Assembly: GCF_026625885.1 (NCBI RefSeq)
Contig: NZ_CP113068.1
Span: 744,001 to 808,000 of the forward strand
DNA: 64,000 bases
Source of the DNA: Roseateles sp. SL47
Lineage (GTDB): Bacteria > Pseudomonadota > Gammaproteobacteria > Burkholderiales > Burkholderiaceae_C
Direction: 5' to 3'
Numbering within the stretch: position 1 is the stretch's first letter; each line of letters starts with the position of its first letter. Positions 50,801 through 63,946 of the stretch are shown here, piece after piece. The notes under the pieces are model-generated. The model did no database searches. It worked only from the letters and a program-made list of their open reading frames with translations, and was not told the DNA's origin. Both the position numbers and the translations under genes were made by a program.

Positions 50801-51076
50801 TTACTTGTTCACGGCGTCCTTCAGGGCCTTGCCCGGCGTGAACTTGGCCACCTTGGCGGCCGGGATCTCCAGCGCTTCGCCAGTGGCGGGGTTCTTGCCG
50901 GTACGGGCCGCACGGTCACCCACCTTGAAGGTGCCAAAGCCCACCAGAGCGATGGTGTCACCCTTGGCGAGGGCTTCGGTGATGGTCTCCAGGGTGGCGT
51001 CCAGCAGGGACGTGGCCACAACGCGGGTGACACCAGCCTTGGTGGCGATGCCTTCGATCAGTTCGCTTTTGTTCAT
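50801..51076 (-). CDS. hup: HU family DNA-binding protein
   Basis: A 91-residue HU protein that bends DNA and compacts the nucleoid. MNKSELIEGIATKAGVTRVV, then ALVGFGTFKVGDRAARTGKN and the arm P ATGEALEIPAAKVAKFTPGK are all present. The start MNKSEL at 51076 is the conserved N-terminus; a longer open frame to 51199 is not. Three terminators follow. Confidence 0.96.
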   Translation of the reverse strand: MNKSELIEGIATKAGVTRVVATSLLDATLETITEALAKGDTIALVGFGTFKVGDRAARTGKNPATGEALEIPAAKVAKFTPGKALKDAVNK

Positions 51077-51305
51077 CAGACTCTCAAAACAGACCCGGAT
51101 CCGGGTGATCCGGGGGTCGCGATTATCGGGCCTGCGGCCCGGGCGGGGAAAAAGCGACTGTGTAGCACTTTCAGGGCTGAACTGGCGCACCTTCGCCACC
51201 CCAACTGCAACAAAACGTCCCCAAAACGGGCTGCAAAGCCGCAGAGCGACCGTTTTTGAGTGTTTTCGGCTCGTTTCAGGTCGATTCCGCGCGTTCTTGA
51301 TGCGC

Positions 51306-52493
51306 TCACGGTGACCCCGTCTTGGCCGCCGTCACGATCCCCTGCCCGGCCGCCCAGGCATTGAGGTCATCCCGCCGGATGGCGGCCGCCATCAGCCCGG
51401 GGAACGCGTCCGGTGTGCAGGCAAATGACGGCACGCCCAATGCGGCCAGCTTGGCCGCCAGCGCATGGTCATACGACGGGGCGCCTTCGTCACTGAGCGC
51501 CAGCAAGGTCACGAACTGCACCCCACTGTCCACCAACTCGGACGCCCGGCGCAGCAACTGCTGCTCCACGCCCCCTTCATACAGATCGGAGATCAGCACA
51601 AAGATGGTGTTGCGCGGCTCGCGGATCTGAGACTGGCAATAAGCCACAGCCCCATTGATGTCGGTACCTCCGCCCAGCTGCACGCCAAACAGCAGGTCCA
51701 CCGGGTCATTGAGCTGCTCGGTCATGTCCACCACGGCCGTGTCAAACACCACCAGCCGGGTACTGACCGACGGCAGCGACGCCATCACTGCCCCGAAGAT
51801 GCTGGCATAGACCACCGAGTTGGCCATGGACCCGCTCTGGTCGATGCACAGCACCACCTCCCGCTGGGGCCGCCGTGCCTTGCGGCCGAAGCCGTGCAGG
51901 GTCTCCGGGATCACCGTGCGGTGGCTGGGCTGCCAGTGCCGCAGGTTGGCGCGGATGGTGCGGTGCCAGTCGATCTCCGCCAGCCGTGGCCGGCGGTTGC
52001 GCTGGCTGCGGTCCAGGGCGCCGGTGACGGCACTGCGCATCGGCTCGTCCAGCCGTTGCATCAAGGCCTCCACCACCTGCCGCACCACCTGGCGGGCCGT
52101 CTCCTTGGTGCCCGCCGGAATGACACCGGACAAGGCCATCAGGCTGGCCACCAGATGCACGTTCGGCTGGACGTTCTGCAGCATCTCCGGCTGCAGCAGC
52201 ATGTCCCGCAGGTTCAGGCGCTCCAGCGCATCCTTTTGCAGCACCTGCACCACGCTGCTGGGGAAGTACTTGCGGATATCTCCCAGCCAACGGGCCACGC
52301 GCGGGGCCGAACCGCCCCGCCCGCCTCGCCGTTCGCCAGAGAGGCCCTGGCCTTGTTCGTCATACAAGGCGCTCAGGGCCTGATCCATCTCCTGCGCTTC
52401 GCCGCTCAAGCCGCCACAGCTGTCCTCGGCTTCGCCCCCCAGCACCAGACGCCAGCGGCGCAGGCGGTCGGCCTCTTCCACAGGTGCGGTCAT
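51306..52493 (-). CDS. VWA domain-containing (CoxE-like) protein of a five-gene MoxR system
   Basis: A 395-residue protein. The N-terminal half is helical (ALYDEQGQGLSGERRGGRGG, RKYFPSSVVQVLQKDALERL). The C-terminal half is a von Willebrand A domain with an intact MIDAS: VLCIDQSGSMANS (DxSxS), GGGTDIN (Thr) and FVLISDLYEGG (Asp). It is the last gene of the operon and its ATG overlaps the DUF5682 stop (ATGA). VWA proteins paired with MoxR ATPases usually act in metal insertion or complex remodelling; the client here is unknown. Confidence 0.92.
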   Translation of the reverse strand: MTAPVEEADRLRRWRLVLGGEAEDSCGGLSGEAQEMDQALSALYDEQGQGLSGERRGGRGGSAPRVARWLGDIRKYFPSSVVQVLQKDALERLNLRDMLLQPEMLQNVQPNVHLVASLMALSGVIPAGTKETARQVVRQVVEALMQRLDEPMRSAVTGALDRSQRNRRPRLAEIDWHRTIRANLRHWQPSHRTVIPETLHGFGRKARRPQREVVLCIDQSGSMANSVVYASIFGAVMASLPSVSTRLVVFDTAVVDMTEQLNDPVDLLFGVQLGGGTDINGAVAYCQSQIREPRNTIFVLISDLYEGGVEQQLLRRASELVDSGVQFVTLLALSDEGAPSYDHALAAKLAALGVPSFACTPDAFPGLMAAAIRRDDLNAWAAGQGIVTAAKTGSP

Positions 52494-54886
52494 GCCTGCA
52501 CTCCCAACAACTGGCGCAACAGGGGCAACGGCAGCCTGGCGCGTGATTCATCCCAGGCGGGCGCCGCCGTGGCGGCCCCCACGGGTCCCTGGCGGGCCGC
52601 GCGCGCACCGAGGTCGCGTCGCTCGCCCTGTTCAAACGCGGCAAAGGTGCGACGCACCAGCGGCAGCACCCGCACAAAATGCTCCTCCGCCAGGCCCGCC
52701 AGCCACTGATCAACCAGCGGCCAGACGCCATCGTGATGCAGCAGCACCACCGCATTGCGGTTGAGGAAGCCGTCCAACCAGGCCGCCGCTTTCAGCGGCT
52801 CCGCGCCGCTGCTCAGGTGCAGCGACAGGGCGGTGCCTGCGTCGTCCGCCGTCAGCTCGCCTTCATCCAGCATCAGCCGCGCACACAGGCCTTGCAGCAA
52901 CTCATGGGCCGTGGATCGATCGGCCAGCAGACGGATGGCGCGCCGCCACTGCTGGGCCGGCTCCCCCTGGCCCCCGGGGTCGCGCAGCTTGACGGCGGCA
53001 TGAGCGGCCAACAGGTGCTCACGCATCTGCTCCGCCGCCGCATCGTCGATGGCGCTGCCCACCAGCGGCAGGCCGATGGCGGCCCGGATCACCAGGCCAT
53101 CAAACACCTGCGCCACCAGCGACGCATCGGTCTGGCGGACATTGCCGTAACGGAACACATTGGCCAGCGGCGGCAAGGCGGCCATCAACTGATCGGCATC
53201 GCCGGTGTGGGCCGCGTGGTCCTGCAAGGCCCGCGAGGCCACCGCCACCGCCTCCGGCAGGTCCGCCAGCAGCACCTGGTCCACCAGCGACGCCAACGAG
53301 GCCAGGTCCGTCGCGGCGGCGCATTGTTCGGCCACCCGTGCCGTGGCCGCCGCCACCACCGAATGGCCGAAGCGGCTGGCCTCGATCAGGCGCACCGCGA
53401 ATTCCGGCTGCCATTGCAGCGTCCACACTTCATGGAAGGTGCCGCGCGACGAGCGCCCCACACGGGCCAGCGAACCCCAGCTCACCGCCAGCAGTGCGAG
53501 GCGGTGCAGCAGATGGCTGCGGGCCAGGTCGTTGGGCTGGCGAAGATCCAGGTCCAGCGTCTTCTGGGTCGCTTCCGGTTTCAGCCGCAGCGATTTCTGA
53601 AGCTGTTCCAGATCGCGCTGCAAGGGCACCTTGGGCACGCTGGACGGCACCTGGCCGAGGCGGTCGCCGATGATGAGTTCCTCGCGGATGAAACCCAGCA
53701 CCGACTCATCACCCAGGGTCATGACGGTGCGGGTGGCTTCGTGCAGTTCTTCCAGCCCCGGGGCGGGACGCTGCCGCAATGCCGCAAGGGTGTCAGCGAG
53801 GCGGGCGGCTTCGATCAAATGGGCGCTGGAGCAGTCCAGGTCACGTGCGCGCATCAGCCGGGCCACACGGGCCAACCAGCCCACTGCGCGCGATTGCGGG
53901 GGCTGCCCTGCCGCACCACCACTGCTGCGCCACAGATGTTCGTACCAGCCGGGGGAGTGGATGCCTGCGCCGTAGCCGCTCTGGAAGGCGAGGTGGCGAT
54001 AGGTCCAGGGCACCCAGGTGCTGGCCACCTTGAGTTTGGGCAGGCCCTTGAGCAGGGTGGCATCCGCCTTGGCGGTCACCGGCGCCTTCAGGCCGCCCAG
54101 GTGCCAGGCGCCGCAGATCACGGCCACACGCTGGAAACCTTGCTTGCGGGCCGCTCGGATGCACTGGCGCATCCAGGCCTCGCGCAGGGCCTCCAGCCGC
54201 TGGCGCGCGGTGGGTGCCGGGTCGTCCTGGGGTGCGTCGGCTCGCACCGCAAGCATCGCTTCCTCGATGGCGGCAAACAGCTGCTCGCCATCGCCGCGTT
54301 CTTCCACCATGTGGTTCCACCAGGCTTCGCCGTCGGCATACCCGGCAGCGCGTGCCAGCCAGTCCAGCGGGTCGCCGCGGCGTTGAGCGTCGGAGGCATG
54401 GGGGGGCGCCTCGGGGTTCGTGTCCACCTCGGTCTGCAAGGCCAGGCCATGCGACACCGGCAGATCGATGAACCGCACAACGGCGCCGGCCGCCACCGCC
54501 CAGCGCAGCGCTTGCCATTCCGGCGAGAACTCGGCAAACGGGTGGTACACCGCCCGCCCAGGTTCATCGACGCCATGGGTCAGAAGCGCCACTGGCGGCC
54601 GCATGTCCTCGGCCTGCACATCGGCCACGAGACCATCGGCCTCGGGCGGCCCCTCAATCAGCACACAGTCCGGCTGCAGACGGCCCAGCGCCTGCAGCAG
54701 GCTGCGGGCGCAGCCCGGACCATGGTGTCGGACGCCAAAGAAATGCAAGGCCGATTCCTGGGCCGGCCGGCGGCGCAGGGAGGCAGCCGCGCCAGCGCTC
54801 ACAACCGCCCCGGTCGTGTCCTGCAGTGCCTCAGGATCTTCGGGTTGGTCGCTCTGCACGTTGCTCTGCATGCTGCTCACCACCAT
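52490..54886 (-). CDS. DUF5682 family protein
   Basis: A protein of about 798 residues. The N-terminal 350 residues have HFFGVRHHGPGCARSLLQAL, DCVLIEGPPEADGLV, VRFIDLPVSHGLAL and RVAVICGAWHLGGL. This His/Glu arrangement (GxxH, EGP, later His) recalls the EreA/ChaN/TraB fold of putative hydrolases; this is my inference. The rest is helical and Ala/Leu-rich, perhaps scaffold repeats (HRLALLAVSWGSLARVG, QVLLADLPEAVAVASRAL). The start ATG 54886 overlaps the MoxR stop (TGATG); a TTG further up is in frame but not needed. Function unknown. Confidence 0.85.
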   Translation of the reverse strand: MVVSSMQSNVQSDQPEDPEALQDTTGAVVSAGAAASLRRRPAQESALHFFGVRHHGPGCARSLLQALGRLQPDCVLIEGPPEADGLVADVQAEDMRPPVALLTHGVDEPGRAVYHPFAEFSPEWQALRWAVAAGAVVRFIDLPVSHGLALQTEVDTNPEAPPHASDAQRRGDPLDWLARAAGYADGEAWWNHMVEERGDGEQLFAAIEEAMLAVRADAPQDDPAPTARQRLEALREAWMRQCIRAARKQGFQRVAVICGAWHLGGLKAPVTAKADATLLKGLPKLKVASTWVPWTYRHLAFQSGYGAGIHSPGWYEHLWRSSGGAAGQPPQSRAVGWLARVARLMRARDLDCSSAHLIEAARLADTLAALRQRPAPGLEELHEATRTVMTLGDESVLGFIREELIIGDRLGQVPSSVPKVPLQRDLEQLQKSLRLKPEATQKTLDLDLRQPNDLARSHLLHRLALLAVSWGSLARVGRSSRGTFHEVWTLQWQPEFAVRLIEASRFGHSVVAAATARVAEQCAAATDLASLASLVDQVLLADLPEAVAVASRALQDHAAHTGDADQLMAALPPLANVFRYGNVRQTDASLVAQVFDGLVIRAAIGLPLVGSAIDDAAAEQMREHLLAAHAAVKLRDPGGQGEPAQQWRRAIRLLADRSTAHELLQGLCARLMLDEGELTADDAGTALSLHLSSGAEPLKAAAWLDGFLNRNAVVLLHHDGVWPLVDQWLAGLAEEHFVRVLPLVRRTFAAFEQGERRDLGARAARQGPVGAATAAPAWDESRARLPLPLLRQLLGVQA

Positions 54887-55977
54887 CACACCTGTTCGCG
54901 GCAAGCCCGATACAAATCCTTCCAGTCGGCCCGCTCCTTGACCACGGTCTCCAGATATTCGGTCCAGACCACCTGATCCTGCACCGGGTCCTTCACGACC
55001 GCACCCAGCAGACCCGCAGCCATGTCACGAGGGCTCAGCACCCCGTCGCCAAAGTGGCCCGCCAACGCCATGCCACTGTTGATGACCGAAATCGCCTCGG
55101 CGGTGGACAAGGTGCCACTGGGCGACTTCACCTGGGTCTTGCCGTCTTCGGTACGGCCCTGACGCAGTTCCCGGAAGATCTGCACCACACGGCGGACTTC
55201 CTTCAACGCGGGCGGCTCGGCCGGCAGTTGCAGCGCCGCGCCCATCTCGGTGACCCGCTTCATCACGATCGACACTTCCTCGTCCTCGGTGGCGGGCACC
55301 GGCAGCACCACCGTGTTGAAGCGCCGCTTCAGCGCGGCGGACAGCTCATTCACGCCCTTGTCCCGATTGTTGGCCGTGGCGATCACGCTGAAGCCGCGCA
55401 CCGCCTGCACTTCGCTGCCCAGCTCCGGCACCGGCAGCGTCTTCTCGGACAGGACGGTGATCAGGCTGTCCTGCACATCCGCCGGGATACGGGTCAGTTC
55501 CTCCACCCGCGCGATCTTGCCGGCGCGCATGGCCTTCATCAGCGGGCTGGACACCAGCGCCGCCTCGGACGGGCCGTTGGCCAGCAGTTGCGCATAGTTC
55601 CAGCCATAACGCAGCTGCTCCTCGCCGGTACCCGCCGTCCCCTGGATCAGCAAGGTGGAATCGCCGCTCACCGCCGCAGCCAGATGCTCGGACACCCAGG
55701 ACTTGGCCGTGCCCGGCACCCCATACAGCAGCAGCGCCCGATCCGTGGCCAGCGTGGCCACAGCAATCTCCATCAGCCGTTCGTTGCCGATGTATTTGGG
55801 GCTGATCTGGAAACCGTTGTCCAGGGTGCCCCCCATCAGGTAACACAGCACCGCCCAGGGCGACAGCAGCCAGTTCTCCGGGCGTGGGCGCTGGTCCTGG
55901 CGCTGCAGCTCGTGCAGCTCTTCGGCGAACTGCTGCTCGGCATGTCGGCGCAGCACGTGGGCGTTGGAAGTCGTCAT
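54886..55977 (-). CDS. MoxR-type AAA+ ATPase
   Basis: A 363-residue AAA+ ATPase. Walker A GVPGTAKSW (about 92-100), then RIPADVQDSLITVLSEKTLP, the sensor FSVIATANNRDKGVNELSAA and ALKRRFNTVVLPVPATEDEE with the arginine-finger region. A C-terminal lid follows. The GAKS variant in place of GKT/S at the Walker A Lys-Ser is visible as TAKS, common in MoxR relatives. The start MTTSNAHVL at 55977 overlaps the DUF5691 stop. Partner of the VWA protein in the same operon. Confidence 0.92.
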   Translation of the reverse strand: MTTSNAHVLRRHAEQQFAEELHELQRQDQRPRPENWLLSPWAVLCYLMGGTLDNGFQISPKYIGNERLMEIAVATLATDRALLLYGVPGTAKSWVSEHLAAAVSGDSTLLIQGTAGTGEEQLRYGWNYAQLLANGPSEAALVSSPLMKAMRAGKIARVEELTRIPADVQDSLITVLSEKTLPVPELGSEVQAVRGFSVIATANNRDKGVNELSAALKRRFNTVVLPVPATEDEEVSIVMKRVTEMGAALQLPAEPPALKEVRRVVQIFRELRQGRTEDGKTQVKSPSGTLSTAEAISVINSGMALAGHFGDGVLSPRDMAAGLLGAVVKDPVQDQVVWTEYLETVVKERADWKDLYRACREQV

Positions 55978-57503
55978 GGGGTCCTCGATGTCAACCGGGG
56001 CAGATGAAGAAACGCGCGACGCAGGGCCACCACCTGGGTCACGGCGGTCATGGCGTCGGCATGGGAAGCCGTCTCGCCGTCCCGATGGAACTGGGTCAGG
56101 CCCTCGAATGCATCCAGGCAGTCCGCATGCAGGACGGCGCAGCACTCGGCCAGCAAGGGGCGGACGCCATAGTCGTCCTTGAGCTTGCCGTCGCGCGCAT
56201 GGGCCAGCACCAGACGGGTGACGGCTTGCGAGAGTGGCAGGCCCAGCGTATGACCGTCCAGACAGGCGGACAGCAGCACCACCAGCGGCAACCGCGCCTC
56301 CTCGACGTGGCGCTGCCAGTGGCGTTCACGTCGGTCCTGCGGCAACCACTGCAGCAGTTGCGCCGAGCGCAGGGACTGGGGCTGGATCAGGAGCGCCTCG
56401 CACCAGTCCGGTTCCCGGGTGGCCGCCAGCGCATCCAGCCAGCCACGTGTCAGGGCTTCGGCCCAGTCGGTCCGGGCCGCCCATGCAATGAGTTGCTCCG
56501 GCGTCTGGCCGGTATGGGCCTTCCACCAGGCCACCGGGACCTGGCGCACCAGTTGGTACAGCCACCACGCCCGCTCGCCGAGGGTTTCCTGCTGAGGGCG
56601 GGTCGGGATGATCTGGTCTGCTTCCCAGTCCGGGGCCACCGCCGTGGGAGGCTCCAACGTCCAGGCTCGGCCCCACAGGCCCTTCGGCGCGTGGAGCAAG
56701 GCCGCCAGACGCGCTTGGGCACGGCGGGTATGGGCTGCCCCCGCAATCTGCATCAGCAGACGCACGGAAAGATCGCGCACCTCGCGGCTACGGTCGGTGC
56801 GGCAGCGCTCCAGCAGGGGTTCATCGTCCGGCCCGATGCCGATCTCCAGCACGGGCAACAACTCCAGCCGCTCTTTGGCCGGCAGGCCAGGCAGGGCCTG
56901 GGCCAGCCGCTCGCGGGCGGCTGCCGGCGCCGCCCGACGTTCGTGCTGGAGAAAGGCGCGCCGTTGTTCCAGCGTGCCTTCGGTCCAGTGGCTGTCCTGC
57001 GGCGCTTCACCGCTCACACCGGCGGCATACCGCCATTCATCACGTTGAGCCGCCAGCCACAGGCCGCGCTCGCCCAGCACGGGCAGCAGGTCCGGACGCA
57101 GCGCGGTGGCGCGTCGGCCGAGTTCCAAGGCTTGCGGCAGCAGGTGCGCGGGCAGGCGATAACCGGCATCGCCCAAGGTGCTGAAGACAAACGAATGCAG
57201 TCGGGCCGGCCCGTCCTGCAAGGCCCATTGCAGCAGCGGCTGCAGGGGTGCGGGTGCGCAGGGGCGATGGTCGGCTGCAGCAGGCGCGGGGGGAGGAACC
57301 ATGGCGGCGGTGGGGCGGGCGCCGGCCAACTGGCAAGGGGCCAGGACGGCGGCCGCGCGAAGCACAGCGTCCGCCGGACTGCGCGTTGCCGCGCCGGTCT
57401 GAGCGATCAGCTCACCCATCTCGCCGGGCCATGCCGGCAGCGGCCCACTCTGGCGCTCGGTGCCCACCATCAGCGTGGGCAGCAAAGGAGTCCATGCACT
57501 CAT
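55974..57503 (-). CDS. DUF5691 family protein
   Basis: A 509-residue soluble protein of the DUF5691 family. MSAWTPLLPTLMVGTERQSG is the family N-terminus. The body is Leu/Arg-rich and helical with HEAT-like repeats (RDLSVRLLMQIAGAAHTRRA, LPGLPAKERLELLPVLEIGI) and ends DAMTAVTQVVALRRAFLHLP. Function unknown; it probably scaffolds the complex. The start is ATG 57503, four bases overlapping the SWIM-gene stop, and the stop overlaps the MoxR start. Confidence 0.85.
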   Translation of the reverse strand: MSAWTPLLPTLMVGTERQSGPLPAWPGEMGELIAQTGAATRSPADAVLRAAAVLAPCQLAGARPTAAMVPPPAPAAADHRPCAPAPLQPLLQWALQDGPARLHSFVFSTLGDAGYRLPAHLLPQALELGRRATALRPDLLPVLGERGLWLAAQRDEWRYAAGVSGEAPQDSHWTEGTLEQRRAFLQHERRAAPAAARERLAQALPGLPAKERLELLPVLEIGIGPDDEPLLERCRTDRSREVRDLSVRLLMQIAGAAHTRRAQARLAALLHAPKGLWGRAWTLEPPTAVAPDWEADQIIPTRPQQETLGERAWWLYQLVRQVPVAWWKAHTGQTPEQLIAWAARTDWAEALTRGWLDALAATREPDWCEALLIQPQSLRSAQLLQWLPQDRRERHWQRHVEEARLPLVVLLSACLDGHTLGLPLSQAVTRLVLAHARDGKLKDDYGVRPLLAECCAVLHADCLDAFEGLTQFHRDGETASHADAMTAVTQVVALRRAFLHLPRLTSRTP

Positions 57504-59089
57504 GCCTGGCTCCTGATCCAGATCGGCCGGGGGTCGGCACCCGACCAGGCCGTCAACGGCAACAGGCGCTCGCCGTCCCATTCACCGGCCACGGTCATCG
57601 GATGCCCGCCCGAGGCGGCCATCAACAGCCAGCGTTCCTGCTCGCCCATGGACAGCGGCAAGGACTGGCCCCCGGCCTGAAGCTGCGCGCCGGCTTCGGT
57701 CACCACCGCCACGGCATCGGTGAGCACCATCGGATGCAGCAGCACGAAAGGGTGGGCGGCGATACGTTCGGCCACACGTTGCCATTCGGCGGCCCAGGGA
57801 TCGGTGGGGAGGTCAATGGTGAGATCGGTGTTGAGGTCAGTGGTGGGATCGCTGGTGGAGGCGAGGCTGATACCGCTTGCGGAATCACGGCCCTTATCAC
57901 TCGTGGATTCGCGGCGGGTGTTGCTGTTGATGGGCGTTGCGACGCCCACAGCCTTGCCGGCAGGTGCAGGCACGCGGGTCGGAAGGTGGGCCGACAGTTG
58001 CGGGGGCGCCACCGTCATGGGCTGCAGGTTCAAGGCATCCCCCTCCTCCTGCCGCTGCACGACCAGCGCTCGCATCGGGCTGGCCCCCGGAAACGTGGCC
58101 AGCGTGGCCGCGACGGCGGTGCCCGGCACCCATAGGCCGTTGAATCCCTTGCCGCCATGGGCATGTTCCAGCAGCCACGCCCGGCGCCCGGTCTGCTCGC
58201 CCTGCAGCCACACCCGTCGCTCCATCAGACGGCCTTCACGTTCTTCGATCACGGCAGCCAGCACCGCCCAGCGGTCGTCCACCCGTTCGCCGCTGGCCAG
58301 TACGTCGGCCTGGTCCACCGGCCAGCCGCACAGCGTACGCAAGTCCGCCTGGACCGGCGCTGGCAACTGCTCCCGACGGGTCAACGCCTCCGTCGCCAGT
58401 TGCAACAGGCCCAGCTGGACGATCATGCGCTCCGGCCAGTCCGCGCCCTGGCGCCATACGTCGGCGGCGGCCTGCAGCCGTTGGCCCAGGCCCGGTGCCT
58501 GCGCATCCACCATGCGGGCAGCCATGGTGCGCCAGCCCTGGATCGATGCCGCATCCAAGGCACCCAGGCCACGGGCGATCTGGTCGCCCAGCCAGCGCTG
58601 GAGTTCCTGGGCGGCGGCCTCGATGCGCTGCCAGCGCTGGGCCTCCCGCTTCAGCGAGGCATCGTCCGTCGCTCCATCCGCGTCGCCGGTCTCGCGCTGG
58701 GCCGCACGCGCCTCGGCGCGGTGGGTGGTGTCGCGGTCGCGTTCTTCCTTTTTCTCCGCACGTTCATGGCGGGACAACAGCCATTCGGCCACCCAGGCCG
58801 GCGGCTCGGTGGCGCTCAAGCTGGCGGCGGTCTGCACCCGCATCAACAGCAGGGCCAGGCCATGCTTGCAGGGAAACTTGCGGCTGGGACAGGAGCATTT
58901 GAAGGCGGGCCCACTCAGGTCCACCTGGGTTTGATACGGCTTGGAGCCGCTGCCTTGGCATTCACCCCAGAGCGCCGATTCATTGGCCCCCAGCAGCGGC
59001 CATTTGGCGGGTGAGGTCAGGCCCCTGGCCGCCTTCGCCGATGCATCGTCCGGCGCCAGCGCCAGGACGCCCTCCATGGTCAGCGACAT
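57500..59089 (-). CDS. SWIM zinc finger protein, first gene of the five-gene MoxR operon
   Basis: A 529-residue protein. The SWIM motif CxCxnCxH appears at residues about 64-77 in FKCSCPSRKFPCKHGLALLL, so it should bind zinc and nucleic acid or protein. A charged helix follows (RHERAEKKEERDRDTTHRAE), then a helical region and a hydrophilic low-complexity linker with repeated Thr-Asp (DPTTDLNTDLTIDLPTD, around 57800-57850). The C-terminal domain ends LMAASGGHPMTVAGEWDGER. ATG 59089; GGGAGCGGG upstream. Its stop overlaps DUF5691. Confidence 0.92.
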   Translation of the reverse strand: MSLTMEGVLALAPDDASAKAARGLTSPAKWPLLGANESALWGECQGSGSKPYQTQVDLSGPAFKCSCPSRKFPCKHGLALLLMRVQTAASLSATEPPAWVAEWLLSRHERAEKKEERDRDTTHRAEARAAQRETGDADGATDDASLKREAQRWQRIEAAAQELQRWLGDQIARGLGALDAASIQGWRTMAARMVDAQAPGLGQRLQAAADVWRQGADWPERMIVQLGLLQLATEALTRREQLPAPVQADLRTLCGWPVDQADVLASGERVDDRWAVLAAVIEEREGRLMERRVWLQGEQTGRRAWLLEHAHGGKGFNGLWVPGTAVAATLATFPGASPMRALVVQRQEEGDALNLQPMTVAPPQLSAHLPTRVPAPAGKAVGVATPINSNTRRESTSDKGRDSASGISLASTSDPTTDLNTDLTIDLPTDPWAAEWQRVAERIAAHPFVLLHPMVLTDAVAVVTEAGAQLQAGGQSLPLSMGEQERWLLMAASGGHPMTVAGEWDGERLLPLTAWSGADPRPIWIRSQA

Positions 59090-59420
59090 GCTGGCCCGCT
59101 CCCGATTGGATTTTTGATGGTCGGCAGTCTAGCCACATTCGATGACGGCCACGAAACGTCCAAAGTCACATGCCACGTCCCGTTCGTTCGCGAGACACTG
59201 CATGGAGGCGACCCCCGATTCACGGGGGAAGCGTCTCGAACCCCGATCGCTTCGATGCATTCGGGCTTCCGGCTGTGGGGAAGTGTTGCTTGAATGCCCC
59301 TCGTCAACGTGGAGGGCCTCGCTGATCAAAGGCCACTTGCCGATACTTCGGGCAGTCGTCCTCGACAGCGACATGAATCGGGCCCCGCGCCGGAGCGCCC
59401 CCCTTCTCTATCGGACAGCC
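59090..59420. other. Divergent intergenic region between the SWIM operon and a lipoprotein gene
   Basis: 331 bp. It should hold the promoters of the leftward five-gene operon and the rightward lipoprotein gene. The upstream reading frame of the lipoprotein is open through most of it, but the encoded peptide has no similarity pattern or signal and is not counted as coding. No confident promoter was found. Confidence 0.4.
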
Positions 59421-61349
59421 ATGCGATATCAGAATCCCCTCGCCGCTTCTCCTGCTGTGGCCTCGACCGCTGTTGGTCAGGCCCCTCGGTTCAAACATCG
59501 TTCTGGCAGCGTCCTTGCGGGCGTGCTGGCCGCAGCTTCCACATTGTTAAGCGCCTGCGGCGGTGACAGCGACTCCAGCACTGACAGTGGCGTGACCGTC
59601 ACGTATGCCACGCTGGTGCGTGTGGCCGCCGAGGCGGTGGGCAGTCATTGCACGGCAGGTGGCGCGCGAATTGAATCAGGCATGGACCTCGATTCGAATG
59701 GCGTGCTGGCCGACAGTGAAGTCACTTCGACGCAATATGTCTGCAATGGTACGCAGGGATCCACGGGGTCCACCGGCGCCGATGGCAGCTCGGGCAGCAA
59801 TGGCTTGTCGACCCTGGTGCGTGTGCAGGCCGAAGCGGTGGGCAGCAACTGCGCGCAGGGCGGCTCGGCCGTGCTGGCCGGACTGGATACCAATGCCAAT
59901 GGCGTGCTGGACAACAGCGAGGTCACCAGCACCAGCTACGTTTGCAGCGGAGCTACCGGCGCCACGGGCCCTACCGGCAGCACGGGCAGCGCCGGTAGCG
60001 ATGGCTACAACAGCCTGGTGCTGCTCACCACCGAAGCGGCGGGGGCCAATTGCACTTACGGTGGGCAGCGTGTGCAGTCCGGGCTGGACACCAACCGCAA
60101 TGGCGTTCTGGACAGCGGCGAAGTCACCACCACCACCTACCTCTGTAGCGCCGCCCCGGCCGATACGCAATGGGTCAACGTGACTGGCGGCAGTGTGCAG
60201 GCCGCCTCCAACACCGGCTACCTGGCCAACGCCAGCACATTGGTCACCATCACCCTGCCCGCCTCGCCCGCCATTGGCGACTGGATCAAGATCACCGGCG
60301 TCGGCACGGGTGGCTGGACGGTGGCGCAGAACGCGGGCCAGCGCATCAGCACCCGGGGCCTGCCCGGTGGCATGGCGCTGACCTGGGCATCCGAATCTCT
60401 TCCGGGCAGTTGGTCCGGCGTGGCCATGTCCAGCGATGCGACCCGGCAAGTGGCTGTATCCTCGGCCGGCAACGTGTATGTGTCCACCGACTCCGGGGGC
60501 AGCTGGATACTGCGAAAGACCGGACCGGCCCTGTCGGCCGTGGCCAGTTCCTCCGACGGCCTGAAGCTTGCGGCCTGTTCCAACGGCGGCCCCATCTACC
60601 TCTCGACGGACGGCGGCGTGAACTGGGTGGATGACGGCAGCGCCAGGGCCTGGGCCGCCATTGCGAGTTCGGCCGATGGCACGCGGCTGGTCGCCGCTGC
60701 GTATCTGGACGGCATCTATACCTCCTCGGACAGCGGCGCCAGCTGGACACTGCGCGAGAGTAGCCGCCCCTTCCGCGCGGTCAGCTCGTCCTCCGACGGT
60801 CGGGTGCTGGTGGCCGGTACCAATGGCGACCAGCTCTACGTCTCCACCGACTACGGCGTCACCTGGACCGCCCGGGCCACCAATGAGTATTGGTGGGGCG
60901 TGACGTCTTCGGCGGATGGCACCCGCCTCTATGCAAGCGTCGACACCGGCTATATCTGGACCTCGACCGACTACGGCACCACCTGGGAACGCCAAGACAG
61001 CACCCGCAACTGGCGAGGCATCACCACCTCCCAGGACGGCCGTTATGTCGTGGCGGTGACGGATGGCAGCCTCATCTATCAATCCACGGACTTCGGCAGC
61101 AGTTGGCAACCCACGGCCGACGCAGGCGCCTGGACCACCGTGGCCAGCAGCAGTGACGGGCTGACCCTGCTGGCAGGGAAAGTCAATGTCGATCTTTATG
61201 GCGGGGTGCGGCGTTCCTACACCACGCTCGGCGTCACCGGCTACATCTCGGGCGGGCAGGACGACGCGCTGCAGCTTCAGTATGTCGGTGGGGGGACCTT
61301 CATTCCCATCAGCTATGTATCGGCCAACCTGACCTTCACGGTGAATTAA
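59421..61349 (+). CDS. Exported lipoprotein with three DUF7151-like repeats and a propeller-like domain
   Basis: A 642-residue protein starting MRYQNPLAASP. The hydrophobic stretch at about 34-48 ends in LLSACGG, a lipobox. Three repeats of about 50 residues follow (around 58-290): each has LVRVxAEAVGSxC, a Gly/Asp turn such as GLDTNANGVLDNSEVTST and YVCxG. The Asp-rich turns look like calcium-binding loops. They are separated by Gly-Ser/Thr spacers (TGSTGADGSSGSNG, collagen-like). The C-terminal 350 residues contain repeated xYVSTDxGxxW motifs (STDSGGSWILR, SSDSGASWTLR, STDYGVTWTAR), like BNR/sortilin propellers. Probably on the outer surface, function unknown. Confidence 0.85.
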   Translation: MRYQNPLAASPAVASTAVGQAPRFKHRSGSVLAGVLAAASTLLSACGGDSDSSTDSGVTVTYATLVRVAAEAVGSHCTAGGARIESGMDLDSNGVLADSEVTSTQYVCNGTQGSTGSTGADGSSGSNGLSTLVRVQAEAVGSNCAQGGSAVLAGLDTNANGVLDNSEVTSTSYVCSGATGATGPTGSTGSAGSDGYNSLVLLTTEAAGANCTYGGQRVQSGLDTNRNGVLDSGEVTTTTYLCSAAPADTQWVNVTGGSVQAASNTGYLANASTLVTITLPASPAIGDWIKITGVGTGGWTVAQNAGQRISTRGLPGGMALTWASESLPGSWSGVAMSSDATRQVAVSSAGNVYVSTDSGGSWILRKTGPALSAVASSSDGLKLAACSNGGPIYLSTDGGVNWVDDGSARAWAAIASSADGTRLVAAAYLDGIYTSSDSGASWTLRESSRPFRAVSSSSDGRVLVAGTNGDQLYVSTDYGVTWTARATNEYWWGVTSSADGTRLYASVDTGYIWTSTDYGTTWERQDSTRNWRGITTSQDGRYVVAVTDGSLIYQSTDFGSSWQPTADAGAWTTVASSSDGLTLLAGKVNVDLYGGVRRSYTTLGVTGYISGGQDDALQLQYVGGGTFIPISYVSANLTFTVN

Positions 61350-61717
61350 AGCCAGCCGACACCTTTTCGTCTTGATTGTGTCCAACGGTGAAGAAATCCA
61401 CTTTAGGACCAATTGCAGCGGCCCCCTGCGATCCCTGGGTTGAGCCCAGGGACTGAGAGGGCCCAGACGCTAGTCCTCATTACGGTTTTTCACGAAACCG
61501 TGGACGCTGACGCTGCCGCGTCAACGAACATGCAGCCGGCTCTCAACGCCCGCGCTCCCTCACCAGAACAACGCCATCGCCCCCGACGGGAAGCCAGGCG
61601 AAGCGACCGCTGACCTCGATCGCCCCACCGCACCTGACGTGCGGGCGGCGCATCCGGGCGGCGCTTATGCACCGGGGCGCGAGCGACCGAAGAGTCGTGT
61701 TCAACAGCGGAGGACGC
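61350..61717. other. Intergenic region with two hairpins upstream of the peptidase gene
   Basis: 368 bp without a gene. Two hairpins are visible: TCCCTGGG/CCCAGGGA (61432-61452) and ACGGTTT/AAACCGT (61482-61501). Neither has a T tract after it, so they are not obvious terminators. They could belong to a structured leader of the next gene. GGAGGA at 61710-61715 is its ribosome binding site. Confidence 0.45.
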
Positions 61718-63946
61718 ATGTTCAAAAAGAAATCCCTGGTCGCCTGCCTGGGGCTGGCCGGCCTGTGTGCCAGTGCTGCCCATGCGGCATTGCCGGCCAC
61801 CCTGAGTTACGCGGTCAACAACCGGTGGAGCGGCGGCTACTGCGCCACCGTGAAAGTGACCAATCCCAACACCACCTCGATGACCTGGAGCGGCACGCTG
61901 CGGATCGAGGGCTCGGTCAGCAATGTCTGGAATGCCGAATGGAAGGCCAGCGGCAACCTGCTGACGCTGCAGGGCATTGCCTGGAATCGCATCCTGGCGC
62001 CGCTGGGCAAGAACGAAACGGTGCGCTTCTGCGCGACCACCACGGCTGCGGCGCCGGCGCCCTCTCCGGCACCCGCTCCTTCTCCAGCTCCGGCACCGGC
62101 GCCCACCCCTGCACCTGCGCCGACGCCTGCACCGGCGCCCGCCCCTGCACCTGCGCCGACGCCTGCACCGGCGCCCGCCCCTGCAGCGCCCGTCGTGGAC
62201 GCCGGCACCACCCTGACCAACTGGTACACCGGCACACCAACGGCCCCCACCGTCACGCCCGGCACCTGGCGCGCGGGTGGCCCCAATCCGGAACAAGCCG
62301 CTTTCAAGCTGGTGAAGGAAAGCGCGCACTTTGCGTTCTATTCGGACGAAGCCATTTCCGACGCCGACCTGACCCTGGCCGTCAACACACTGGAAACCAC
62401 GGTGTGGAGTTCGCTGTTCGGGTCGGGGCTGTACATGCCGGAGCCCTTCTACAACAAGGCCGACAAGATCAAGCCGGCGATTCACATCCATTCCGGCTGG
62501 GGCCTGACCGGTGGCGCCTGGGTGGACAGCGCTCGCAATCTGCACATGGGCATGTGGATTGCGCCAGATGCCCTTCGCGACCACTGGGGTCTGACGCATG
62601 AGTTCACTCACGGATGGCAATCGTGGGCGGCGAACAACGGCGGCCTCGTCTGCAACGCGTCCAATACCTGCGGCTGGGTCTTCGAAAGCCATGCCAACTT
62701 CACCCCGCATCAATTGCCGGAATACAAGAGCGACGTGCATTGCTCCGAGATGCTGCCCAACGCGCCGCATCTCTACCTGGGGTCCACCCGCGACCGCTAT
62801 TGCAACTGGCAGTTCATGGAATACCTCAAGGACCGTTATGGGCCCGAGGCGGTGACGCAGATCTGGACCACCTCCGGGGCGGATCCGTTCACCAACATCC
62901 AGAAGGCGCGGGGCTGGACGGTGTCGCAGCTGAATGACTTCTTCGGCGAATGGGCCATGCACAACGTGACCTGGGACTACAAGGCCACGCCGGATGCCTT
63001 CCGCAACAGCTACGGCAACATCGCGCTGACCGACAAGGCCGAGCGGATGCGCCGCCTGATGCCGCTGGAAGCGCTGGACACCAGTTGGGCCGCCAACCGC
63101 CGCTTTGTGTCGCCCTACTACGGCTCGCCGCAGCGCTTCGGCTACAACGTGGTGCGGCTGTATCCGGAAGCCGGTGCCACCACCGTGACGGTGAAGTTCC
63201 GCGGCATCGACCAGACCGGTGCCAATGCCGACTTCCGCTGGGGCCTGGTGGCCACCAACTCGCAGTTCACCTCGTCGCGTTACAGCGGCTTGCAGAAGGG
63301 GCTGGACGGTGAGCTGACCTTCAAGGTGAACACGGGCGAGCCCCTGTTCCTCGTGGTGACGGCGACGCCGACAGTCTTCAAGAGCATCACCTGGGACCAG
63401 GCCTATGGGTCGATCAACCGTTACCGCTACATGGTGGAACTGGCCGGCGCCTGGCCGCAAGGCTTCCAGGGCGGTCAACGGGATCTCTGCCCCACCGGCA
63501 CCGTCCGCCACAGCAACGGCGGTGGCTGCGCACCGACCACCACACCGACCACGGTGTATGTCGGCCCTTACGCCACCATCCTGCCGAACGGACGCGCCAA
63601 CGGCAACGCCCGCATCGAAGACCAGGCCATCGTGGTGAACGGAACGGTCTCGGACAGCGCCGTCGTGGGCGGCCTGAGCATCGTGGGCATGAGCGGCAGC
63701 CCCTGGGGGAACAACACCTTCAACGTGAGCGGGTCCGCGCAGGTGCGCACCACCTTCTACCCGCTGGGCTTCTTCGAGGCCAGCCAGGGAGCGTCCGGCA
63801 CGCTCAACCTGCACGGGGATGTGGAATACCGCGGCGTGGGCTTGAACCTGAGCAGTGGTTATCGGTCCGGCTTTGTGGACGCGACCTCCACCGTAGGGCT
63901 CTCCACCGACGTGAATCCGAAAACGGCGCCCGTGTGGCGGCCGTGA
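61718..63946 (+). CDS. Secreted CBM2-like/DUF6055 putative metallopeptidase
   Basis: A 742-residue exported protein. The signal peptide is MFKKKSLVACLGLAGLCASA, ending AHAA. Residues about 25-108 resemble a CBM2 sugar-binding domain: YAVNNRWSGGYCATVKVTNP, SMTWSGTLRIEG. A Pro-Ala/Thr-Pro linker of about 45 residues follows. The middle domain (about 165-480) matches DUF6055; HEFTHGWQSWAANNG gives an HExxH-type site (HEFTH) and FESHANFTPH supplies a possible third ligand, so a zinc peptidase is plausible. The C-terminal part (YVGPYATILPNGRANGNARI, VVGGLSIVGMSG) looks like a left-handed beta-helix. Start ATG 61718 behind GGAGGA. Substrate unknown. Confidence 0.85.
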   Translation: MFKKKSLVACLGLAGLCASAAHAALPATLSYAVNNRWSGGYCATVKVTNPNTTSMTWSGTLRIEGSVSNVWNAEWKASGNLLTLQGIAWNRILAPLGKNETVRFCATTTAAAPAPSPAPAPSPAPAPAPTPAPAPTPAPAPAPAPAPTPAPAPAPAAPVVDAGTTLTNWYTGTPTAPTVTPGTWRAGGPNPEQAAFKLVKESAHFAFYSDEAISDADLTLAVNTLETTVWSSLFGSGLYMPEPFYNKADKIKPAIHIHSGWGLTGGAWVDSARNLHMGMWIAPDALRDHWGLTHEFTHGWQSWAANNGGLVCNASNTCGWVFESHANFTPHQLPEYKSDVHCSEMLPNAPHLYLGSTRDRYCNWQFMEYLKDRYGPEAVTQIWTTSGADPFTNIQKARGWTVSQLNDFFGEWAMHNVTWDYKATPDAFRNSYGNIALTDKAERMRRLMPLEALDTSWAANRRFVSPYYGSPQRFGYNVVRLYPEAGATTVTVKFRGIDQTGANADFRWGLVATNSQFTSSRYSGLQKGLDGELTFKVNTGEPLFLVVTATPTVFKSITWDQAYGSINRYRYMVELAGAWPQGFQGGQRDLCPTGTVRHSNGGGCAPTTTPTTVYVGPYATILPNGRANGNARIEDQAIVVNGTVSDSAVVGGLSIVGMSGSPWGNNTFNVSGSAQVRTTFYPLGFFEASQGASGTLNLHGDVEYRGVGLNLSSGYRSGFVDATSTVGLSTDVNPKTAPVWRP

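Follow-up and report, generated by a model that had tools for sequence, protein, structure and literature searches.

A number of systems have been described in which a MoxR AAA+ ATPase is paired with a von Willebrand factor A (VWA) protein, and it is with these that we compare a five-gene operon of Roseateles sp. SL47. The window analysed is a stretch of 64,000 nucleotides (contig NZ_CP113068.1, positions 744,001 to 808,000), within which five minus-strand genes (59089-51306) follow one another in the order SWIM, DUF5691, MoxR, DUF5682, VWA. In the RavA-ViaA system of Escherichia coli a MoxR ATPase and a VWA partner likewise share one operon, according to passages of PMC3893208, which also give YehL as one of seven MoxR subfamilies. 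However, RavA gives only 23.5 bits to the window MoxR and no further partner of the five-gene set lies in its annotated stretch, whereas YehL, the only other E. coli MoxR protein compared, is closer at 234 bits. The MoxR-vWA ternary conflict systems are of four kinds, with VMAP, iSTAND, FtsH or a beta-propeller as the third component, and passages of PMC7159879 (Kaur et al.) describe effector domains that follow the vWA domain and vary, fast divergence, a preponderance in multicellular bacteria and, for the FtsH and beta-propeller classes, a GXXXTAKS P-loop. The Roseateles set shares with them, as far as those passages go, a MoxR and vWA core with further partners and the P-loop (GVPGTAKS in the window), and the fusion of an effector-like domain to vWA in some lineages may be counted as a further likeness to sets of the window type. 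It differs in that a Pfam scan of the five proteins gives no VMAP, iSTAND, FtsH or beta-propeller match, in having no variable vWA tail (the domain reaches residue 363 of 395) and in its slow-evolving core. The terms SWIM, DUF5682 and YehL have no match in the main text of PMC7159879, and the four systems in its available passages do not include this set.

We propose, with a probability of about 0.5, that the five gene products assemble into a single remodelling machine of the MoxR-vWA type, cytoplasmic and driven by ATP, in which DUF5682 would be the working hydrolase and the SWIM and HEAT-like proteins the adaptor. MoxR would be the ring ATPase and the VWA protein, which bears a metal ion-dependent adhesion site (MIDAS), would grip a partner or client. 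DUF5682 would be the enzyme, with a TIKI/TraB-like hydrolase domain followed by a long C-terminal region, and would dock on the VWA protein, while SWIM and DUF5691 would make up another sub-assembly, by which the client is recognised or presented. The computed basis comprises the gene set and its order across phyla, the kept motifs of the ATPase, the MIDAS and SWIM, the fusions found in nature, the unequal conservation of the five proteins, and the resemblance of DUF5682 to the TIKI/TraB superfamily in motifs and weakly in profile; from this we infer the cytoplasmic site, the physical complex, hydrolysis, the direction of control and a client. A physiological client is favoured for such a regulated machine. 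The genes and their motifs are these:

57500..59089, minus strand: SWIM zinc-finger protein, the first gene; 529 amino acids; Pfam SWIM (PF04434), E 5e-6, residues 64-83
58862..58897, minus strand: SWIM motif CSCPSRKFPCKH, residues 65-76; pattern CxCPSRKxPCKH in 67/67 SWIM rows of the fetched loci
55974..57503, minus strand: DUF5691 protein, probable HEAT-like helical adaptor; 509 amino acids; PF18944, 3e-126
54886..55977, minus strand: MoxR AAA+ ATPase, YehL-like; 363 amino acids; PF07728 (AAA_5), 5e-37
55699..55722, minus strand: MoxR Walker A motif GVPGTAKS, residues 86-93; GxPGTxKS in 67/73 MoxR rows
52490..54886, minus strand: DUF5682 protein, 798 amino acids counted from the overlapping ATG; PF18934, 1.5e-257
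53927..54748, minus strand: DUF5682 N-terminal TIKI/TraB-like region, about residues 47-320 (approximate limits), with in-register DUF5694 and TraB/GumN profile matches
54722..54736, minus strand: DUF5682 motif 1, GVRHH, residues 51-55
54101..54112, minus strand: DUF5682 motif 2, GAWH, residues 259-262
51306..52493, minus strand: VWA_CoxE protein, 395 amino acids; PF05762, 1e-51
51825..51842, minus strand: VWA MIDAS motif DQSGSM, residues 218-223; DxSGSM in 70/72 VWA rows

Gene association, fusions and conservation

All four junctions overlap, by ATGA at SWIM/DUF5691 (57503-57500), DUF5691/MoxR (55977-55974) and DUF5682/VWA (52493-52490), and by TGATG at MoxR/DUF5682 (54888-54884). The sequence-only reading had placed five overlapping genes of a single operon at 51306..59089; the coordinates and all four overlaps were read directly and agree with it, and the shared order, strand and overlaps support one operon. 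The MoxR gene most likely starts at 55977, giving the 363-residue product, and the 419-residue open frame is most likely an in-frame extension.

Relatives were fetched from a genome contig collection by DUF5682 alignment alone, which matched at least 590 stretches; confirmation left 559, from which the 80 best were taken. When these 80 loci were scanned with a profile of each protein, 66 proved to have the complete set, under 10 phylum labels taken from the record titles (40 of the 66 are Pseudomonadota, and one of the labels is Candidatus Melainabacteria), and the exact order SWIM-DUF5691-MoxR-DUF5682-VWA on one strand in 61 of 81 loci (the 80 and E. coli). As the loci were fetched with DUF5682 only, the association of the genes goes beyond chance. 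The complete set also occurs in Nonomuraea gerenzanensis (Actinomycetota), Methylobacterium bullatum, Rhizobium etli and Deinococcus taeanensis, so that the co-occurrence in distant phyla, Actinobacteria included, that the sequence-only reading had suggested holds. Tight overlap is not kept everywhere among relatives, an overlapping start being possible at 49/66 SWIM/DUF5691, 36/70 DUF5691/MoxR and 60/70 DUF5682/VWA junctions.

That the products act as a single complex, as the sequence-only reading had supposed, is made likely by natural fusions. DUF5682 and VWA are joined in a protein of 1255 amino acids in Streptomyces atratus (DUF5682 6.7e-203, VWA_CoxE 8.9e-65) and in another of 1228 amino acids in locus L128, and SWIM is joined to DUF5691 in a 1009-residue protein of Hymenobacter (SWIM match 2.3e-111). 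The fusions thus couple VWA to DUF5682 and SWIM to DUF5691. The five proteins are conserved to very different degrees: mean identity between phyla (1330 pairs each) is 0.76 for MoxR, 0.65 for VWA, 0.50 for DUF5682, 0.45 for SWIM and 0.27 for DUF5691. We read this as an engine that stays constant with a single part that changes, DUF5691, which we take to be the adaptor since it varies between phyla whilst MoxR is nearly fixed. The earlier suggestion that DUF5691 is helical-repeat-like is supported by weak matches to three HEAT models, which hit 7, 6 and 5 of the 26 members scanned (best 2e-4) but not the window protein itself. In a sequence search of solved structures the window MoxR matched NorQ and Midasin chains; SWIM and VWA had no match and DUF5691 gave chance matches only.

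The best 80 loci lean to near relatives, and samples of genomes were therefore also scanned for DUF5682. It was present in 6 of 150 Pseudomonadota genomes, among which DUF5691 was above cut-off in 4, each time adjoining DUF5682, with one more match below cut-off in a genome without DUF5682. In the window's own family it was found in 15 of 150 genomes, in score classes of 840-888 bits (8) and 297-349 bits (7), and in the phylum of the L072 genome in 4 of 119, one of them weak. Among plasmids, the system is found in 36 of 72,556 records; several are chromosome-sized, and in 16 the match spans 80% of the query or more. The distance matrices of the five proteins are correlated at 0.86-0.95, and the phylum labels on a quick tree of four proteins require 13 changes against a minimum possible of 9, in a tree with several long branches in which single placements are unsure. 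These figures point to mostly clustered inheritance with some inter-phylum mixing. Flanking genes are shared within Comamonas/Delftia and within Variovorax, and most listed flanking families are shared within a single genus group. No sixth cassette gene emerged, the commonest flanking family being found at 10 of the 80 loci with flanks often cut by contig ends.

Individual loci carry additional genes. An antitoxin-like small protein (judged by eye) and a PIN-domain toxin lie between DUF5682 and VWA at L018:12438-13057, and the same position holds a DarT ADP-ribosyltransferase with a DarT1-type NADAR antitoxin in a Polaromonas metagenome-assembled genome (MAG; L025:10197-11403) and a lone NADAR gene in an Acidobacteria MAG (L049:7704-8150). 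A cytosine methylase and a type II restriction enzyme lie between MoxR and DUF5682 in Allochromatium (L037:7850-9867), and a D12 methylase, an Mrr-type endonuclease and an N4/N6 methylase immediately upstream of the Fusobacterium SWIM gene (L195:1005-4386). MoxR and DUF5682 are separated by about 4.3 kb at L017:5670-10001 and L175:11202-15526, the first gap holding a long repeat-like protein of 784 amino acids (tetratricopeptide repeats by eye). A gene that we take, from its sequence, to be htpG-like (Hsp90) lies upstream of the cassette in Variovorax (L012, L013, L014, L016, L017) and downstream in Dechloromonas (L021:15688-17610). On a Methylosinus plasmid the VWA gene is unannotated, spread over three reading frames and possibly broken (L170:10172-11397). 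One record filed as a phage (MT835988, L171) has MoxR, DUF5682 and VWA genes; it is an unverified faecal contig, two of the other proteins of which are DUF5716/DUF5717, and it was set aside as a phage-borne set and treated as bacterial.

Around the Roseateles operon, an HU-type gene lies 229 bases downstream (50801-51076). Upstream and divergent, on the plus strand, 59142-61349 encodes a protein with three DUF7151 stretches, BNR/sortilin-like repeats and a weak collagen-like match, and 61667-63946 (plus strand) encodes a DUF6055 protein with a cellulose-binding CBM2 domain. A scan of 51050-59400 found no sigma-70-like promoter and 6 terminator-like sites, against 3.8 (standard deviation 1.9) in shuffles, and the window has no Rfam match at gathering score. 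None of the five proteins has an NCBIfam match at cut-off.

Sister operons with DUF4132

A sister operon is present in E. coli K-12, where yehL-yehM-yehP-yehQ encode MoxR, DUF5682, VWA and SWIM proteins, with yehI (DUF4132) nearby. MoxR is 40% identical to YehL, DUF5682 is 28% identical to YehM (itself a PF18934 match at 2e-98) and the VWA_CoxE protein beside the YehL-like MoxR of the window is 38% identical to YehP. The E. coli region yehI-yehK-yehL-yehM-yehP-yehQ thus resembles the window set in its MoxR, DUF5682, VWA and adjacent SWIM protein, but it has no DUF5691, YehI lies upstream with yehK between, and the SWIM protein comes last and is similar to that of the window only around the zinc finger. 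The order DUF4132-MoxR-DUF5682-VWA-SWIM is common to two further genomes and an Iodobacter plasmid, and that of Agrobacterium vitis is MoxR-DUF5682-DUF4132-VWA-SWIM. The window set is not of the YehL type, having DUF5691, no DUF4132 and SWIM in first place. In Fusobacterium vincentii a 638-residue protein without a Pfam match occupies the DUF5691 place. HEAT_2 matches were obtained in 2 of 6 DUF4132 proteins or pieces (4.6e-7 and 4.4e-11), the other four, YehI included, having none; since some DUF5691 members weakly match HEAT models and some DUF4132 proteins match HEAT_2, a protein of some HEAT-like character accompanies the shared core in both sets. On our reading the Yeh-type operons would encode this machine too, a DUF4132 protein taking the place of DUF5691.

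Some Yeh-type operons also contain a WGR domain (PF05406), which is found in the Agrobacterium DUF4132 protein and is lacking from YehI; the PF05406 annotation is also borne by YehF, close to the E. coli operon. Together with the SWIM motif in every one of the 67 rows, this could suggest a repair or stress machine in which SWIM or WGR would hold the motor of MoxR and VWA on a nucleic acid, DNA or RNA. SWIM domains can bind proteins as well, however, and the Pfam matches of the five proteins include no nuclease, ligase or polymerase family. A nucleic-acid-linked machine appears very improbable.

The stretch yehLMPQ is near-core in E. coli, being present at 80% coverage or more in 5162 of 5426 genomes (part of the neighbouring metG is found in 5376 of 5426), and 5320 of its 5322 matching places are chromosomal. 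This bears on the earlier suggestion of a mobile, self-contained system, which stands only in part: presence is patchy, there are the plasmid records and there is some mixing between phyla, but flanks are shared within Comamonas/Delftia and within Variovorax, and the E. coli sister is near-core, a status that speaks against a conflict system that is mobile and nothing else. A role in conflict, in which MoxR-VWA would restrain a harmful hydrolase and release it when an invader is sensed, by analogy with proposals for the ternary systems, would suit the patchiness, the plasmid records and the mixing. It would also suit the toxin-antitoxin, restriction or ADP-ribosylation genes inside 4 of 66 cassettes (4 of the 10 loci with gaps inspected; a raw count), the restriction genes that adjoin the Fusobacterium set and those at most about 0.6 kb from the set of Iodobacter, the P-loop shared with two of the systems in the passages of Kaur et al. 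(PMC7159879), and a bpMoxR match of the window MoxR just below cut-off (25.4 against 27 bits). Against it, PADLOC matched no known anti-phage family in the window set beyond weak P-loop matches (best E 0.0011), the flanks are shared within those genus groups, and MoxR and VWA, 76% and 65% identical between phyla, are unlike fast-diversifying conflict systems. Toxin-antitoxin and restriction-type guest genes, moreover, insert in many places. We consider the conflict role raised by the sequence-only reading unlikely.

DUF5682 as a candidate hydrolase

The remodelling machine proposed above requires an enzyme, for which the N-terminal half of DUF5682 is the candidate. Its layout is G-x-R-H-H, then P-D-x-x-L-x-E-G-P, then R-E-A-x-M-R...G-x-W-H. 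The TIKI/TraB superfamily (TraB/GumN, ChaN, erythromycin esterases) has two motifs that carry the label GX2H and a catalytic Glu, and the window protein has two GX2H-type motifs and a Glu. Among 98 distinct loci (Yeh-type included, with fragments merged and a duplicate genome removed), six positions are invariant: in motif 1 the Arg and the first of the two His, then the Glu and an Asp after it, and in motif 2 both Gly and His. The second His and the Gly of motif 1 are found in 96 and 93 of the loci respectively. A site of the TIKI/TraB type is described as 2His/2Glu in passages of PMC6254334.

Profile comparison gave P 0.0016 for DUF5694 and P 0.0037 for TraB/GumN, the matched stretch having the second motif in register, whilst the profiles of MoxR, VWA, DUF5691 and SWIM gave P 0.14-0.25 and none of 60 controls (59 column shuffles and one reversal) reached the DUF5694 or TraB/GumN score. 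The first 110 columns of DUF5682 alone matched DUF5694 at the Glu strand (the Pd-LIEGP stretch; P 5.9e-4). DUF5694 was itself placed in the superfamily here, by its mutual match with the TraB/GumN profile in the same register (P 8.5e-4). DUF5682 thus resembles the superfamily in its histidine/glutamate motif layout and in these two profile matches, but it differs in its long extra C-terminal region, Pfam gives a weak TraB match in only 1 of 51 rows and a weak DUF5694 match in 1 of 51, and ChaN is unmatched. The hydrolase-like site suspected earlier is supported by the conserved motifs and a weak profile resemblance, and the likeness of the N-terminal half to TIKI/TraB is suggestive, at a level below confident homology.

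The same residues could be kept by a metal carrier, and this bears on a further alternative, that of a maturation chaperone inserting metal into, or activating, an enzyme encoded elsewhere, as CoxD-CoxE or NorQ do, with DUF5682 as a non-catalytic scaffold or metal carrier. The window VWA protein belongs to the CoxE family, its MoxR matches the NorQ and Midasin chains, and strong conservation and a near-core Yeh operon suit a housekeeping function. No recurrent client gene is found beside the cassette, however, at least as far as the often truncated flanks extend, and the invariance of motif residues in 98 of 98 loci also speaks against this alternative, subject to the reservation just made. 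This alternative ranks first among those considered here but is nonetheless unlikely.

A number of observations weigh against the remodelling machine with DUF5682 as its hydrolase. The motif 1 Gly is Pro in 5 of the 98 loci, one of them a five-gene set. In absolute terms the TIKI/TraB link has little strength, with hhalign probabilities of 9 and 16%, ChaN gives no profile match (P 0.056), the first 110 columns give none with TraB/GumN (P 0.23), and DUF5682 has no match among solved structures by sequence search. With a narrower DUF5682 profile the TraB score was 23.4 against 23.3 for one of 20 shuffles, and this first test was not regarded as convincing. Homology between DUF5691 and DUF4132 was not found (P 0.14) over 278 DUF4132 columns, which leave the HEAT part largely outside. 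Among relatives an overlapping MoxR/DUF5682 junction is possible in only 10 of 69 cases. DUF5682 lacks a co-oriented partner in five loci (L051, L056, L062, L072, L080), for three of which DUF5691 lies elsewhere in the genome. L062 may be an assembly break, since its DUF5682 starts near a contig start and another contig of the same genome (L137) ends in SWIM, DUF5691 and MoxR. Of the other incomplete loci among the 14, four end at a contig edge inside a cassette gene (L015, L027, L043, L075) and five lack one to three members. The sequence-only reading had held that single members found widely without the others would speak against it, and this is so in part, with Yeh-type sets that lack DUF5691 and some DUF5682 genes without co-oriented partners.

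Novelty and significance

The MoxR-vWA kind is not wholly new, as the E. coli sister operon exists. DUF5682 and DUF5691 are named in no paper found by a search of the open-access literature (subscription papers and preprints lying outside it), the five-gene set has no mention in the available passages of PMC10910872, PMC11833690 and PMC12839542 and no term match in PMC13092281, and passages of open-access MoxR papers name YehL in passing only, with no function for yehLMPQ in those found. Four features were not met in the papers searched: the other gene order, in which DUF4132 replaces DUF5691; the natural DUF5682-VWA and SWIM-DUF5691 fusions; the possible TIKI/TraB resemblance of the DUF5682 N-terminal half, by motif and weakly by profile; and the contrast between a MoxR that hardly changes (76% identity between phyla) and a DUF5691 that varies widely (27%).

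A wider proposal can be put forward tentatively, the odds leaning against it: that these operons represent a separate, broadly conserved MoxR-vWA class in which an AAA+ ring would directly gate a vWA-docked TIKI-like protease or hydrolase, a swappable HEAT adaptor (DUF5691 or DUF4132) together with SWIM would pick the client, and the same machine would be present, unrecognised, as a near-core operon of E. coli K-12. The YehL branch of MoxR proteins has been named without a function in the papers found, and the E. coli operon becomes directly testable in a laboratory strain once YehL is tied to a constant set of partners, among them a candidate enzyme for which candidate active-site residues can be named. 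The TIKI/TraB superfamily is known mainly from secreted or toxin enzymes and, if the proposal is true, an ATP-controlled TIKI-like hydrolase would join it.

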